Shown here: positions 1,253-40,250 of the stretch, one piece after another | Layout of the letters: every line of letters begins with the position of its first letter | Numbering within the stretch: position 1 is the stretch's first letter | Source: a virus | IMG/VR virus record: IMGVR_UViG_3300047321_000073 | Location: 1-40,718 of that record | DNA: 40,718 bases | Reading direction: 5' to 3' (one strand) | Made by a program: the position numbers and the translations under genes | Notes under the pieces: generated by a model | Databases searched by the model: none | Seen by the model: the letters and a program-made list of their open reading frames with translations, nothing else | Told to the model about the DNA's origin: nothing

Positions 1253-3022
1253 ATGACACACGGGGTGGTTACCGGGATGACGATTCACGCGGCAGGCTAT
1301 GACAGACAGTCGTACGCGAAGGAAAATCAAAGCGTAGCGTCACCAGCCTCACAGCGGGCAGCGAACGAGAAAGCCGCATCGGACCTTCGTCAGCGCGGCG
1401 AGGACGTCACATGGGTGGGCCACTTCTCCGAAGCCCCCGGTACGTCCGCCTTCGGTTCCGCTGAACGCCCGGAGTTCAACCGGCTGTTGGACGAGTGCCG
1501 CCGCGGACACGTCAACATGATTTTCGTCATGTACGTGAGCCGCTTCTCGCGCCTTGACCCGCTCGAAGCAATTCCTATCGTCTCCGAATTGCTCAATATC
1601 GGAGTGACGATTGTGTCCGTTACGGAAGGCACTTTCCGTAAGGGCAACATCATGGATTTGATTCACATCATCATGCGCCTTGACGCCGCGCATAACGAAA
1701 GCAAGAACAAATCCGACGCCATCCAAGGGGCTAAAGAAACGGCAAAGTCGCTTGGTGGGTATTTGGGTGGGCGACCCCCTTACGGCTTTATGATGGTGCC
1801 TCAGAATGTGCAATTGGGTAACGGGCAACACGTCACAATCCAGACCCTTCAGCATTCGACTGAGAAGCTTTCCGGGCCGCTCAAGAATGAGCCGGACGTG
1901 ATCCGCGAAATGTGGGCGCGCATTCGAAAGCACCGCGATAAACCGTTCGTCCCCGCTGGTCCCGGAGTAGGCCACCCAGGCTCCATTAGCGGCATTTGCG
2001 CATCGTTCGAGACCACGGGCGTACCGACACGAGGTAGCGCCGTAGGCAAGCTCACAGCGGGCAGCGCATGGGACCCGGCAGTTGTGAAGCGCATTCTTCG
2101 TGACCCGCGCGTTGCTGGCTTTCAGGCTGACCCCGTGTACAAGACGGACGCTGCTGGTAAGAAGACGTACACAATCACGGAGTACCGCATTAGGCGCGAC
2201 CCGGTCACCATGGCGCCGCTGACGCTCGAATGCGGAGCCATCATCCCGCCGGACGAGTGGCACGACTTGCAAGGGTGGTTGGACGGCAGGGGGCGCGGCA
2301 AGGGGCTGAGCCGGGGGCAGGCGCTGCTGTCCGCTATGGGGCGGCTGTACTGCGAGTGCGGGGCGAACGGCTCAGGACACAAGGCCGGCAGCGTCGGAGC
2401 AACCTACAGGTGTATGCGGCGAAAGAAGCTTCCCGGACGGCACGAAGGCGGCAACACGATCGGCATGGCGGCGCTGGATCAGTACGTTGCCGGCCGCATC
2501 ATGGCGCGCATCGGTGCCGCGGACCACGAGGACGAAGCCACCCTAGCCATGCTGTGGGAAGCCACACGGCGCTTCGGCAAGCTCACAGAAGCCCCTGAGA
2601 CGACGGGTGAGCGCGCGTCCCTCCTGTCTGAACGGCACGACGCACTAGGCGCGTTGGAAGACCTGTACGAGGACCGTGCGGCCGGCGGGTATGGCGGGGC
2701 GATCGGGCGTAAGCACTTCCTGAAGGCTGAGGCAGCGGCAACGCTCCGGCTACAGGGTGCGGAAGAACGGCTAGCGGAGTTGGACGAAGCGCAAAACCCG
2801 GTCATGCCGATCGGTGAGTGGCTGGGTGAGCCTGGCACCGACCCGACCGGGCCCGACTCGTGGTGGGGGCGCAGCGGCATCCCGGAGCGACGGGCGTTCG
2901 TGGCGATCTTCGTTGACCGCATAGAAATCATGCGGAACCCGGCGGCAGGGGCGCAGACACCCGTGGAGAAGCGCGTCAGGATCACGTGGGCGACGCCGGA
3001 AGAGGACGAAGCGGCGGCGTAG
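1253..3022 (+). CDS. int: Large serine integrase, phiC31 type (589 aa)
   Basis: It recombines attP with a host attB to integrate the phage, and with the RDF catalyses excision. The start MT-GVVTG matches the N-terminus of phiC31 Int, which fixes ATG 1253. The resolvase domain (about residues 12-170) carries the catalytic serine in YDRQS (Ser20) and SRFSRL. The recombinase domain follows with GRPPYGF and WDPAVVKRILRDPR. A zinc ribbon begins near residue 365 (CECG, then a later C) and a coiled-coil region lies at about 440-520. The length is close to phiC31 Int (about 605). attP is immediately upstream and a terminator follows. Confidence 0.97.
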   Translation: MTHGVVTGMTIHAAGYDRQSYAKENQSVASPASQRAANEKAASDLRQRGEDVTWVGHFSEAPGTSAFGSAERPEFNRLLDECRRGHVNMIFVMYVSRFSRLDPLEAIPIVSELLNIGVTIVSVTEGTFRKGNIMDLIHIIMRLDAAHNESKNKSDAIQGAKETAKSLGGYLGGRPPYGFMMVPQNVQLGNGQHVTIQTLQHSTEKLSGPLKNEPDVIREMWARIRKHRDKPFVPAGPGVGHPGSISGICASFETTGVPTRGSAVGKLTAGSAWDPAVVKRILRDPRVAGFQADPVYKTDAAGKKTYTITEYRIRRDPVTMAPLTLECGAIIPPDEWHDLQGWLDGRGRGKGLSRGQALLSAMGRLYCECGANGSGHKAGSVGATYRCMRRKKLPGRHEGGNTIGMAALDQYVAGRIMARIGAADHEDEATLAMLWEATRRFGKLTEAPETTGERASLLSERHDALGALEDLYEDRAAGGYGGAIGRKHFLKAEAAATLRLQGAEERLAELDEAQNPVMPIGEWLGEPGTDPTGPDSWWGRSGIPERRAFVAIFVDRIEIMRNPAAGAQTPVEKRVRITWATPEEDEAAA

Positions 3023-3291: not shown

Positions 3292-3307
3292 GTCACCGAC
3301 TCCCTTC
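3292..3307 (+). promoter_or_regulatory. Early-promoter-like motif, copy 1
   Basis: GTCACCGACTCCCTTC, preceded by A. It lies about 48 bp after the AT-rich repeat and upstream of the tRNA cluster, so it would drive the tRNA/HNH segment. This is the only copy with no protein gene shortly downstream. Confidence 0.6.
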
Positions 3308-3585: not shown

Positions 3586-3664
3586 CCGCTGTTGGTGGAA
3601 TGGTAGACACGTCCGGCTTAGGCCCGGATGCTTCGGCATGGGGGTTCGAATCCCTCACAGCGGA
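3586..3664 (+). tRNA. tRNA-Leu(UAG)
   Basis: Acceptor CCGCTGT/ACAGCGG pairs perfectly, with A73. The anticodon arm is TCCGG-CTTAGGC-CCGGA, giving anticodon TAG, which reads CTA. There is a long variable arm TGC-TTCG-GCA as expected for Leu, and T arm GGGGG-TTCGAAT-CCCTC. CCA is not encoded. CTA is rare in Streptomyces but common in this phage's late genes. Confidence 0.93.
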
Positions 3665-3726
3665 CGAGCGCAAGCGCGGACAGGACGAGCCTTCACACGG
3701 CTGGTGACCTACGCGTGAGCGCGAAT

Positions 3727-3801
3727 GTGGGTATGGCGCAGGTTGGTCAGCGCGCTCCGTTTGGGACGGAGAGGACGTGGGTTCGAATCCCGCTGCCCGC
3801 A
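3727..3801 (+). tRNA. tRNA-Pro(UGG)
   Basis: Acceptor GTGGGTA/TGCCCGC with two G-T pairs, D arm GCGC...GCGC with GG in the loop, anticodon arm CTCCG-TTTGGGA-CGGAG (anticodon TGG, reading CCA and possibly other CCN), and T arm GTGGG-TTCGAAT-CCCGC. CCA is not encoded. A palindromic operator starts seven bases downstream. Confidence 0.92.
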
Positions 3802-3807
3802 CAACCT

Positions 3808-4177: not shown

Positions 4178-4535
4178 GCGTGCGATGAGCGTGTGCCCTA
4201 CCCCAGGTTGCCCCGTGCTGACCCCTGGTGGGCGCTGTGGTGAGTGTGTGGCTAAGGCTCAGGCTCGCCGGCGTGGCCCTAAGAGGAATGGCTATGGCAC
4301 GTCATGGCAGCGCACTAGGCGAGCGTTCCTGAGGGAGCATCCATGGTGTGAGTGTGCTGAGTGCATGGCGCTGTCACCCATGCTGAGACCTGTTGCCACT
4401 GAGGTGAACCACATTGACGGGCTCGGGCCACTAGGTCCGCGCGGTCATGACTGGTCGAACCTTCAGGCTATGACGAAGGCTCATCACTCGCGTCTCACTG
4501 CGCGCGAACAACCGGGCGGCTGGAACGACCGCTAG
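4170..4535 (+). CDS. HNH endonuclease 2 (121 aa)
   Basis: HNH-type endonuclease. The N-terminus carries a CxxxxC...CxxC zinc motif (VCPTPGCP, GRCGEC). The middle has the RNGYGTSWQRTRRAFLREHP pattern typical of phage HNH proteins near terminase, and the core is VNHIDGLGP...NLQAMTKAHHSRLT. GTG 4170 overlaps the end of the preceding HNH gene by 8 bases. The YGTSWQR...HP...C..C layout is the form usually found beside terminase small subunits, so it is my preferred candidate for the packaging-linked HNH. Confidence 0.88.
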   Translation: MARRAMSVCPTPGCPVLTPGGRCGECVAKAQARRRGPKRNGYGTSWQRTRRAFLREHPWCECAECMALSPMLRPVATEVNHIDGLGPLGPRGHDWSNLQAMTKAHHSRLTAREQPGGWNDR

Positions 4536-4550
4536 TCACCGACTCCCTTC
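4535..4550 (+). promoter_or_regulatory. Early-promoter-like motif, copy 2
   Basis: GTCACCGACTCCCTTC. Its first base is the last base of the stop codon of HNH gene 2. It is followed by a GTAGTC/GACTAC hairpin (4551-4569) and then HNH gene 3. Confidence 0.65.
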
Positions 4551-23292: not shown

Positions 23293-23308
23293 GTTCCCGA
23301 CTCCCTTC
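23293..23308 (+). promoter_or_regulatory. Early-promoter-like motif, copy 3
   Basis: GTTCCCGACTCCCTTC, with two changes in the left half. It stands 38 bp before the dNMP kinase start. GAAGGGAGT (23330-23338), the ribosome site, is the reverse complement of the right half. Confidence 0.65.
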
Positions 23309-25664: not shown

Positions 25665-25680
25665 GTGACCGACTCCCTTC
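25665..25680 (+). promoter_or_regulatory. Early-promoter-like motif, copy 4
   Basis: GTGACCGACTCCCTTC. The downstream ribosome site GAAGGGAGTC (25699-25708) is a 10-base reverse complement of its right half. Confidence 0.68.
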
Positions 25681-26893: not shown

Positions 26894-26909
26894 GTCACCG
26901 ACTCCCTTC
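26894..26909 (+). promoter_or_regulatory. Early-promoter-like motif, copy 5
   Basis: GTCACCGACTCCCTTC ahead of the RDF gene. The gap to the start codon is about 80 bp, longer than for other copies, and includes a hairpin (26935-26965, arms GCGCCGGA and TCCGGCGC). The ribosome site is AAGGGAG (26974-26980). Confidence 0.68.
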
Positions 26910-28464: not shown

Positions 28465-28870
28465 GCCGAAATGCCCGTGCAAGGCGTGCCGAGACAAGCG
28501 GCGGAAGGCGCACATCAAGCGCTATTACTCGAACCTGCCGACTGACAAGCGCCACGAACTCAGTCAGAAGCGGCGCGCGACGGCGTACGGCGTGGAACAC
28601 AAGGCGTATTCCCGCACTGCGATCATGCGCCGTTGGGCTTACCGCTGCGCCTACTGCAACGCAAGGGCTGAGCATCTTGACCACGTCCACCCGCTGAGCA
28701 AGGGGGGCGCGGACGCTGAGCACAACATGTTGCCCGCGTGCGCGAAGTGCAATCTCTCGAAGGGTGCGAAGACTCTTGCTGACTGGGCACTCACCTTCGG
28801 GCCGGCAAGTCACCGACTCCCTTCTGACCCCCCGAAGGACGAGAGAAGGGAACCCCCGTGGAGTTCGTAG
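28454..28870 (+). CDS. HNH endonuclease 4 (138 aa)
   Basis: N-terminal CPCKACRDKRRKAHIKRYY zinc and basic segment, then YRCAYCNARAEHLDHVHPLS, KGGADAEHNMLPACAKCNLS and KGAKTLADWAL. This is the same HNH subtype as the protein at 34951-35511. ATG 28454 overlaps the previous gene. The last 23 codons run through an early-promoter-like motif and past the primase start (28858), so the C-terminus has a non-conserved look (GPASHRLPSDPPKDER) and may be a side effect of insertion next to the promoter. Confidence 0.85.
   Translation: MSHEPKCPCKACRDKRRKAHIKRYYSNLPTDKRHELSQKRRATAYGVEHKAYSRTAIMRRWAYRCAYCNARAEHLDHVHPLSKGGADAEHNMLPACAKCNLSKGAKTLADWALTFGPASHRLPSDPPKDERREPPWSS
28809..28824 (+). promoter_or_regulatory. 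Early-promoter-like motif, copy 6, inside HNH gene 4
   Basis: GTCACCGACTCCCTTC, within the coding 3' end of HNH gene 4 and 34 bp before the primase-helicase GTG. Ribosome site GAAGGGA at 28845-28851. Confidence 0.68.
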
Positions 28871-31379: not shown

Positions 31380-31395
31380 GTTACCGACTCCCTTC
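31380..31395 (+). promoter_or_regulatory. Early-promoter-like motif, copy 7
   Basis: GTTACCGACTCCCTTC ahead of the DNA polymerase gene. The ribosome site AGGGGAGT follows at 31411-31418. Confidence 0.68.
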
Positions 31396-33383: not shown

Positions 33384-33401
33384 ACGTCAGAACAAGATCA
33401 A

Positions 33402-33439
33402 AGCCCCGTTACCTGTAAAGGACAGGTAACGGGGCTTCT
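33402..33439 (+). terminator. Strong terminator after the DNA polymerase gene
   Basis: Perfect 15 bp arms AGCCCCGTTACCTGT and ACAGGTAACGGGGCT, loop AAAGG, then TCTG. Confidence 0.88.
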
Positions 33440-33716
33440 GTCATATGCCAAATCCGTACATCCAAAGGATGAGACGGCATCACGCCTTCGAATCCTCAAC
33501 AACCCCAGGCCGGCCCACCCGGTCATCACGTGTGTTCCGGACGAAAACGAACCTACTCACGTGAGTGCGTTCGGGTTATGTTCGAGCTGCACGACGGACC
33601 GGAAGTGATCAGCCTCCGTCGGCAAGAGTCGGTGACCGTATCGGTTGCCCTCACCTGCCCAAACGTGGGGTGAGCCTTGCCGTGAGCAGGCTGTGACGTC
33701 CTTCGTCGCTCCCTAA
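33440..33716. other. Gene-poor gap between polymerase terminator and sigma-like gene
   Basis: Together with the preceding bases this forms a stretch of about 460 bp without a convincing gene. It contains operator palindrome 8 and a weak CTCACC...GGTGAG hairpin near 33650-33673. Short open frames exist but have no ribosome site. A small RNA or a regulatory leader is possible; I see no further signal. Confidence 0.5.
33555..33566. promoter_or_regulatory. Palindromic operator-like site 8 (no-spacer form)
   Basis: ACTCACGTGAGT inside a longer imperfect hairpin (CGAACCT...GCGTTCG). Confidence 0.62.
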
Positions 33717-33732
33717 GTCACCGACTCCCTTC
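33717..33732 (+). promoter_or_regulatory. Early-promoter-like motif, copy 8
   Basis: GTCACCGACTCCCTTC ahead of the sigma-like gene, so that gene may activate its own promoter. Ribosome site AGGGAGTC at 33751-33758. Confidence 0.7.
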
Positions 33733-33763
33733 AGCGGATTCAAACGACCTAGGGAGTCACCAA

Positions 33764-34954
33764 ATGCTGTCCTTCGACACCATCAAGGCCGCTCAGTCCG
33801 CGGACAAGCTTGCCGCCACCACTGCCGCCGCAACCATCGTCGAAGCCATGGCGGGACGCATCAAGACTCACGCCGACCGGGCAGCGCGCCGTATGGCTCC
33901 GCACGGGGGTGCACGCCTCGCCGAATACAAGGATGAGTTTGCGCAGGTTGGTCGTGTGGCTGTGTTCGATGCGCTGAGCCGCTTCACGGACACGACGGTT
34001 GACGCGTTTGAGCGCTTCGTTTACTCGACCGTGGAAAACGCCATGAAGGATGCTGTCCGCACTGAGCGCAACGGCGGGGCGGGGGCGGACGAGACGGCTG
34101 TGAAGGTCTTCGCCTCCATGATTGAAGCCGCGGACGGCGACCTTTACGCGGCAGCGAAGATGTGCCAGACCTTGCCGCCGGCCGGTCGTCGCCTGAGCGT
34201 TGAGCGCGCTAACGCCGCCCGTCTTGCGTGGCAGGGTGCTCTGTCGCTGGACAAGGCCACTACCAACCATCAGAAGGCTGGTGAGGGTTCGTGGTCGCTC
34301 GGGGACATGCTTCCCGTTTACGACGAAGAGCTTGACGGCGAGATTCGCCCGAAGGTTGGTCGGGGCGCTGTGATCGAAGCCGCCATGGTTCTTGAGCGGT
34401 ACGTGGCTACGCCGAAGAACGACAAGGACCGTATCCGGCTCACTGACGCGCTTGTAGCCATGCGCCACGGGTTCGCCAACCCTGAGCACGTTGAGACGGT
34501 TGAGGACGTTGTCAGCGTGCCGCGCAACCCGCAGACGCGCCGCTACGTACTGGACGCAATGGCTGTTCTTCGCTCCGCTGTGTCGACGGTGGCGGACGGG
34601 GCGCTTGCCGCGGACCTTCGTGACGCCAGTGATGACCGCATGGCCGATTCGCGGGAGAAGCGCAACCGCGTAAATGACGTTCTTGACTCGATGGGGAAGG
34701 CACAGCGTGACGTACTGCGCCACTCGTTCGGCATCAATGACGTCATGGACTTCGGGTGGGGCGACGGGTGCGACATGGAAGGGCTGTGCGCGGCACTGGG
34801 CATGACGTACGTCAACGCGAAGGCTCACCGCGCTAAGGGTCGGAAGGCGTTCGCGAAGCGCTACGTGGCGGCTATCGCCATTGAGCGCCCCGCCTTTGCC
34901 GCTGTGCTCGAAGCCGCCGCTGCCGCGAACCTGAAGAACGGTGGGCGCAAGTGA
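33764..34954 (+). CDS. Divergent sigma-70-like protein (396 aa)
   Basis: A predicted phage RNA polymerase sigma factor, from pattern recognition only. Residues about 31-105 resemble sigma region 2: EYKDEFAQVGRVAVFDALSR, then F-T-D, FERFVYSTVENAMKDAVR. Residues about 305-366 resemble region 4: VLDSMGKAQRDVLRHSFG, then an HTH GLCAALGMTYVNAKAHRAKG. The middle 200 residues are unlike known sigma factors. ATG 33764 has AGGGAGT seven bases upstream. phiC31 early promoters are known to need a phage function, and this protein would fit. It could instead be an anti-sigma or other HTH protein. Confidence 0.55.
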   Translation: MLSFDTIKAAQSADKLAATTAAATIVEAMAGRIKTHADRAARRMAPHGGARLAEYKDEFAQVGRVAVFDALSRFTDTTVDAFERFVYSTVENAMKDAVRTERNGGAGADETAVKVFASMIEAADGDLYAAAKMCQTLPPAGRRLSVERANAARLAWQGALSLDKATTNHQKAGEGSWSLGDMLPVYDEELDGEIRPKVGRGAVIEAAMVLERYVATPKNDKDRIRLTDALVAMRHGFANPEHVETVEDVVSVPRNPQTRRYVLDAMAVLRSAVSTVADGALAADLRDASDDRMADSREKRNRVNDVLDSMGKAQRDVLRHSFGINDVMDFGWGDGCDMEGLCAALGMTYVNAKAHRAKGRKAFAKRYVAAIAIERPAFAAVLEAAAAANLKNGGRK

Positions 34955-35511
34955 GCGCGGGCACGGAGCAGAAGACGTGCACGAAGTGCGGCGAGACGAA
35001 GGCGCTTGACGCGTTCGCAGCCGAAAAGAAGGGAAAGTTCGGGCGCAGAGCGTCATGTAAAGCGTGCTGTAACGCGCACTCCGCAAAGTACTACGCCACC
35101 AATAGAGCTCAATGCGTCGAAGCGCGCCGCAGATGGGCAGAGAACAACCCGGACAGAGTTCGAGATAACAACCGCGCATGGCGTGAAAACAACGCGGAGC
35201 ACCTCAGCGAGTACTACCGAGCATGGTACGCAGCCAACCCGGACGCCGTGCAGCTTGCTCGTGCCCGTCGCCGTGCGCGCGTAGCCAACGCCCCGCATGA
35301 GCCGTACTCGCGTACCGACATATTCGCCGCCTACGGCGACACCTGCACCTACTGCGACGCACCCGCTGAGCATCTTGACCACGTGGTTCCCATCAGCAAG
35401 GGCGGAGCTGACGCAGCGCACAACCTCCTGCCGGCATGCGCCCCCTGCAACCTCTCCAAGAGCGATAAGAGCCTGGCCGATTGGGCCCTGAGCTGGGTCG
35501 CGAAGCCCTAG
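34951..35511 (+). CDS. HNH endonuclease 5 (186 aa)
   Basis: N-terminal zinc ribbon KTCTKCGETKALDAF...RRASCKACCN, then three short repeats of the YY/W-A-x-NPD type (YYATNRAQCVEARRRWAENN; AWRENNAEHLSEYYRAW), and a C-terminal HNH domain CTYCDAPAEHLDHVVPISKG, ADAAHNLLPACAPCNLSKSD. The C-terminal half is close to HNH 4. GTG 34951 overlaps the sigma-like gene end. Its codon use is less GC-rich in the N-terminal repeats, and its stop codon abuts an early-promoter motif, suggesting a mobile homing-type gene. Confidence 0.9.
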   Translation: MSAGTEQKTCTKCGETKALDAFAAEKKGKFGRRASCKACCNAHSAKYYATNRAQCVEARRRWAENNPDRVRDNNRAWRENNAEHLSEYYRAWYAANPDAVQLARARRRARVANAPHEPYSRTDIFAAYGDTCTYCDAPAEHLDHVVPISKGGADAAHNLLPACAPCNLSKSDKSLADWALSWVAKP

Positions 35512-35526
35512 TCACCGACTCCCTTC
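35511..35526 (+). promoter_or_regulatory. Early-promoter-like motif, copy 9
   Basis: GTCACCGACTCCCTTC, overlapping by one base the stop codon of HNH 5. It would drive the small-gene and nucleotide-metabolism block. Confidence 0.68.
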
Positions 35527-40229: not shown

Positions 40230-40234
40230 GCACG

Positions 40235-40250
40235 TCACCGACTCCCTTCA
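40235..40250 (+). promoter_or_regulatory. Early-promoter-like motif, copy 10
   Basis: GTCACCGACTCCCTTC ahead of the DUF2637-type gene; GGGAGT and GGGAG follow at 40280-40292. Confidence 0.66.

Follow-up and report, generated by a model that had tools for sequence, protein, structure and literature searches.

The gp12 locus and its leader

The stretch of DNA analysed here (the window) is a 40,718-base IMG/VR virus record with a phiC31-like but permuted gene map. Relative to phiC31, positions 1-40718 are circularly permuted, and an ORF of 589 residues at 1253-3022, probably the integrase, lies near the left end. The gene of interest is the orthologue of phiC31 gp12 and occupies the equivalent genome position. 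Features at and upstream of this gene are as follows:

33401-33437, + strand: terminator-like inverted repeat between the DNA polymerase gene and the gp12 leader, from reading of the sequence
33555-33566, + strand: palindrome ACTCACGTGAGT, about 150 nt upstream of the gp12 box, its place conserved in relatives
33578-33583, + strand: host-type -10-like element TATGTT just downstream of the operator-like palindrome, likewise read from the sequence
33589-33623, + strand: near-invariant leader hairpin GCACGACGGACCGGAAGTGATCAGCCTCCGTCGGC, the first stem, one copy per genome
33708-33758, + strand: last leader hairpin, in which CTCCCTAAGTC pairs with GACCTAGGGAG and sequesters the SD sequence AGGGAG (33751-33756)
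33717-33731, + strand: promoter-like box GTCACCGACTCCCTT, 47 nt before the ATG, a proposed autoregulatory promoter
33764-34954, + strand: gp12-family sigma factor gene, an intact ORF of 396 residues with an ATG start

By tblastn, the window protein is 62-70% identical to gp12 of Lilbooboo, Vash, phiC31, phiBT1, TG1, Samora and Shawty and 58.5% identical to that of Euratis, with weaker relatives in Rowa, Shady, Attoomi, AbbeyMikolon and Heather. PHROG 15865 (RNA polymerase sigma factor) matches it over the full length with 511.8 bits. The sigma label as such is not new, because RefSeq already gives the product name 'RNA polymerase sigma factor' to the phiC31, phiBT1, TG1 and other entries; the GenBank originals of those phages read 'hypothetical' or 'gp12'.

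The ORF that follows (34951-35511) overlaps the gp12 stop and contains an HNH core resembling IscB/Cas9d models, with a match below the cut-off, and HNH/endonuclease VII genes come after gp12 in Rowa and Heather as well. Gp12 relatives of 334-337 residues (L012 20600-21196 in Heather, L070 and L072) carry a CxxC zinc-ribbon-like C-terminal tail and are adjoined by an endonuclease VII gene, an arrangement that possibly reflects a fusion.

The gp12 leader is a conserved, structured segment of about 175 nt (33589-33763) with several conserved stems. The terminator-like repeat that precedes it is also seen in several relatives, as is the order of an operator-like palindrome followed by a -10-like element. 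From its resemblance, we take the palindrome to be a phiC31-type repressor operator (CIR), and TATGTT is a candidate for the first promoter of gp12. The first leader hairpin is near-invariant over 24 loci, and loci possessing it show one exact match per genome, always in the gp12 leader; a match of this hairpin to Rfam MIR8032 lay below the cut-off and was taken as chance. The gp12 box sits in the 5' arm and loop of the last hairpin, which covers the ribosome-binding site and covaries, four pairs being changed on both sides as against 0.9 in shuffles (1/500). Gp12 leaders fold much more stably than control leaders: the mean z is -3.16 versus -0.76 (p 8e-14), and 72% versus 20% fall below -2. 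RNAalifold gave no structure for 39 divergent gp12 leaders, since sequence alignment cannot align the hairpin arms, and leader structure and covariation were computed within the clade instead.

Sigma-70-family regions in gp12

Gp12 is a sigma-70-family factor with regions 2, 3, 3.2 and 4 and an insertion before region 4, which are distributed along the gene as follows:

33911-34081, + strand: sigma region 2, residues 50-106 (PF04542 match, detection in 54 of 56 relatives, helical AF2 model)
34082-34333, + strand: sigma region 3 (residues 107-163) and a region 3.2-like linker (164-190), by alignment
34334-34618, + strand: helical insertion specific to the clade, about 95 residues long (191-285), by alignment and AF2 helices
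34619-34882, + strand: sigma region 4, residues 286-373, by profile alignment with region 4 of RpoD/SigA/HrdB

The window protein matches Pfam Sigma70_r2 (PF04542) at residues 54-102 with 25.8 bits against a gathering score of 24, and TIGR02937 at residues 40-362 with 43.3 bits against a cut-off of 42.9. Among 56 gp12 relatives, Pfam detects region 2 in 54, region 4 in seven and region 3 in four, the last with weak Sigma70_r3 matches. Sigma70_r4 was not reached in Pfam by the window sequence taken singly, and phmmer with the single protein against the PDB gave nothing informative. Searching the PDB with a profile of the 56 relatives gave 62 distinct sequences, and among the matches listed 60 of 60 are sigma factors; some alignments run from region 2 to region 4, as with full-length RpoS, and the family profile aligns with region 4 of RpoD, SigA and HrdB (E about 1e-7 for RpoD/SigA). 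The recognition helix within region 4 comprises residues of about 349-362.

Structural models are in agreement with these assignments. The AF2 model of the window protein consists of confident helical domains (pLDDT 87.5), and its region 2 is helical with pLDDT mostly above 90. The arrangement of the domains is uncertain, because pTM is low both for this model (0.43) and for that of a 266-residue relative (0.45). The best 50 Foldseek matches of the window model fall on sigma subunits or on models annotated as RNA polymerase/sigma complexes, with probabilities near 1; the best E-value is 4e-3, and 3e-4 for the 266-residue relative, which likewise matches sigma factors. Low TM values in these comparisons are explained by the flexible linkage of sigma domains.

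The preliminary description had read the gene as a phage sigma factor with a region 2-like segment near the N-terminus, a region 4-like helix-turn-helix near the C-terminus and an unusual middle of about 200 residues, and had named structural comparison with sigma2 and sigma4 folds as a check. Pfam region 2, TIGR02937, the PDB profile and Foldseek agree on a phage sigma factor, both terminal segments are borne out, and the structural searches returned sigma factors. The middle has to be divided: about 190-285 is indeed an insertion, missing from shorter relatives (266-311 residues), whereas 107-163 is region 3 and 160-183 resembles the region 3.2 linker, with the pattern 'SLDxP...GSLxDxL'. On reading the alignment, this region 3/3.2 stretch is the most conserved part of the family.

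The repeated box and its probable reader

With one mismatch allowed, the motif GTNRCCGACTCCCTT occurs in exactly ten copies in the window, all on the + strand, as against 0.01 expected in shuffles, and most copies lie 45-60 nt upstream of an ORF. One is the copy before gp12 given above, in keeping with the earlier remark that the gene has its own motif copy; the other nine are:

3292-3306, + strand: upstream of tRNA genes (3586-3802), with no CDS close by
4535-4549, + strand: 48 nt before a GTG ORF of 215 residues
23293-23307, + strand: one mismatch, before the gene in the dNMP kinase position (by synteny)
25665-25679, + strand: before the gene 1 (exonuclease) position (by synteny)
26894-26908, + strand: before the gene 3 (RDF) position (by synteny)
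28809-28823, + strand: before the primase gene
31380-31394, + strand: before the DNA polymerase gene
35511-35525, + strand: downstream of the gp12/HNH gene pair
40234-40248, + strand: near the end of the early block

The motif had been called early, which is right for most copies, standing as they do before early or replication genes; the copy at 3292 precedes tRNAs, however, and the early block does not include those at 4535 and 23293. Gp12 could be imagined as mainly a late-gene sigma factor, for which the copies before tRNA, late and tail genes are the important ones, and copies in relatives do precede a minor tail gene and tRNAs. We regard this as improbable, given that most copies stand before early and replication genes, gp12 itself included.

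We compared the box over 74 viral loci retrieved by means of the family alignment. When each leader served as seed for an iterative PWM search, the matrices shifted towards codon patterns of coding sequence, and a 13-mer test was used instead: the 13-mer with the best recurrence on the + strand is taken from each gp12 leader and scored against random-window controls. In nearly all well-resolved gp12 relatives among these loci, a box of their own, present in several copies, lies about 50 nt before gp12, and the great majority of its other copies share one strand; the 13-mer score exceeds all random-window controls in many loci, not in all, and for the most distant relatives (e.g. L071, L076-L088) the test did not find a clear box family. 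The box diverges along with gp12, appearing as GGTAACCGACTCGCTAG, GGCATTCGACTCACTAG, GGCAATCGACTCGCTAG, TGCGTTCGAACCGCTAG and other versions, and its hexamer is GTTGCC in phiC31, GTCGCC in TG1 and GTCACC in phiBT1, Lilbooboo and the window. Among viral contigs of 24.5 kb or longer, 12 hold at least two exact copies of the box and all 12 of them carry gp12, a count limited to that length since shorter fragments cannot be judged. As a separate observation, the copies before tRNA and late genes (3292-3306; in relatives, e.g. L001 30516) share an extra CATATAGGTAG just downstream which sets them apart from early copies, and possibly form a separate promoter class.

Natural exchanges of domains tie parts of the box to parts of the protein. 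L042 and L044 share region 2 (86%), region 3 (96%) and the block CGAACCGCTAG, while their regions 4 are only 35-45% identical and their hexamers are GTAATC and GCGTTC. Similarly, L041 combines an L039-like region 4 (78-88%) and the hexamer of L039, GTAACC, with an L045-like region 2 and an L045-like ACAG ending of the box. After correction for divergence of the DNA polymerase, hexamer distance tracks sigma4.2 (partial r 0.32, p 0.002) and also sigma4.1, but not sigma2 (partial r 0.07, p 0.16), and the distance of the downstream block tracks regions 3 and 2 most closely. By mutual information, 24 of the 40 strongest hexamer couplings fall in sigma4 against 12.2 expected, in a test whose effective sample is about 28 sequences, with few independent events; recognition-helix residues 353, 355 and 360 are prominent among them. 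GC-type hexamers occur with '(D/P)AR' in this helix, and with GT-type hexamers the same R is preceded by a polar residue.

These couplings also bear on the proposal that the box is an mRNA element controlling translation, its CTCCCTT pairing with a downstream AAGGGAG, and that gp12, though a sigma factor, has other targets. Copies at 23293, 25665, 31380 and 33717 do form hairpins covering the ribosome-binding site, and the gp12 leaders are unusually structured in comparison with control leaders. The 5' hexamer, however, is retained before tRNA genes and in copies lacking a matching hairpin; within the GTAACC clade, the pairing is preserved at the gp12 copy and other copies retain the hexamer without it; and hexamers switch with sigma4, so that this proposal is, in our estimate, marginally less probable still than a mainly late-gene role.

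A natural swap is seen between L043 and L045, compared over about 17 kb. Outside gp12 their identity is 92.8%, and in gp12 it is 59.5%. Each of the five homologous boxes has changed (44-62% identity) with flanks mostly well kept, each pair falling in the lowest 1.4-4.7% of 16-nt windows by identity. The only large replaced unit in these 17 kb is gp12 with its leader; two other replaced patches (L043 14250-14750 and 16250-16750) hold part of thymidylate synthase, thioredoxin and small ORFs, and no evident regulator was found in the divergent patches of the 17 kb other than gp12. That a different phage or host protein reads the box, with gp12 merely co-travelling by linkage, is the least probable of the alternatives: boxes and gp12 do have a common phylogeny and the comparison spans only about 17 kb, but boxes distant from gp12 have switched too, which physical linkage does not explain. 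Since relatives that change gp12 also change the box at each homologous site compared, the evidence points to gp12 as the reader, although the four arguments (swap, domain exchanges, coupling and co-occurrence) share alignments and are not fully independent.

Proposed mechanism and comparison with known systems

Judged from sequence comparison, gp12 is very probably a phage-encoded sigma factor that brings the host's core RNA polymerase to the ten boxes GTCACCGACTCCCTT, its own included. The computed support comprises homology to sigma factors, the number of box copies, the divergence and switching of box and gp12 together, the coupling of domains to parts of the box, and leader structure. The preliminary description had already paired this protein with a ten-copy regulon in a positive loop and had suggested examining whether motif and gene co-occur. 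Co-divergence, the L043/L045 swap, the coupling of hexamer and sigma4 and the 12 of 12 long contigs all speak for the regulon, and the loop is consistent with the box located 47 nt before gp12, whose position the family conserves; gp12 probably activates its own gene.

We infer core binding, promoter activity of the boxes, a first promoter and an order of events that would run as follows. In the absence of repressor, host polymerase would make the first gp12 mRNA from the operator-overlapped promoter near 33555-33583; this mRNA would carry a long, folded leader in which the last hairpin masks the ribosome-binding site, and would be poorly translated. Gp12 would then initiate at its own box and at the nine others, closing a positive loop and switching on units for replication and recombination and some late or tRNA genes. 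Region 4 would read the variable 5' hexamer (GTCACC) and regions 3/2 the downstream part of the box.

The geometry of such a promoter may be unusual. A weak second element, YGARRG (TTCGAAG in Rowa-type phages), lies at a fixed spacing of 18 nt after the hexamer. On a canonical reading (hexamer as -35, YGARRG as -10) transcription would start near +36, and the ribosome-binding site begins earlier than this in 38% of checked copies. The genes concerned may be expressed from longer mRNAs only; alternatively, the box is closer to the start than canonical geometry permits, in which case region 4 would not be expected to reach it. A combined reading, which we consider rather unlikely, is that of a compact contiguous 15-bp promoter of non-standard geometry, with region 4 on the hexamer and regions 3/2 on the adjoining block, together with an own promoter inside an RBS-sequestering hairpin that would silence read-through and first-round mRNA, only self-initiated mRNA being translated. 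If true, it would place a transcription-translation gate on the lytic switch.

A phage sigma factor with a regulon is a known kind of system. SPO1 gp28 and gp34 are phage sigma factors that redirect the host core to phage promoters, and the proposed role of gp12 is alike. Unlike in SPO1, the gp12 boxes include early/replication genes and its own leader, the protein has an insertion between regions 3.2 and 4, and the lineage is unrelated. The SPO1 proteins are named as phage middle/late sigma factors (PMC9429907). Compared with bacterial group 3, FliA/WhiG and ECF sigma factors, gp12 has the region order 2-3-3.2-4 in common, whereas its box is a contiguous 15-bp element, and its matches to FliA/WhiG and SigB/F/G models are weak, far below all subfamily cut-offs. 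In the leader, the nearest likeness is with T4 genes e, soc and 49, where a promoter lies inside a hairpin that sequesters the ribosome-binding site. The gp12 ribosome-binding site similarly pairs with an upstream strand at or before an internal candidate promoter; here, unlike in T4, the controlled gene is the sigma factor itself and the promoter is a candidate from sequence.

The early promoters of phiC31 have long been known to need an unidentified phage function, and in the accessible literature outside subscription journals we found no paper assigning their reader. Within the literature that could be searched, gp12 as the assigned reader of the box appears to be new, as do the switching of promoters in concert, the exchange of domains in nature and the proposed gate in the leader. 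Gp12 offers a specific, testable protein for this function in a much-used actinophage, and its relatives an uncommon opportunity to see the promoters of a regulon switched in concert with their sigma factor; the natural domain swaps amount to a ready-made sigma/promoter recognition code that could be used in orthogonal Streptomyces expression. The closest known counterpart is gp12 of phiC31 itself and of the other members of PHROG 15865 (phiBT1, TG1, Lilbooboo), with which the window shares the orthologue, its place in the genome, the box position and the leader, and the window differs from phiC31 and TG1 in the hexamer that its boxes carry.
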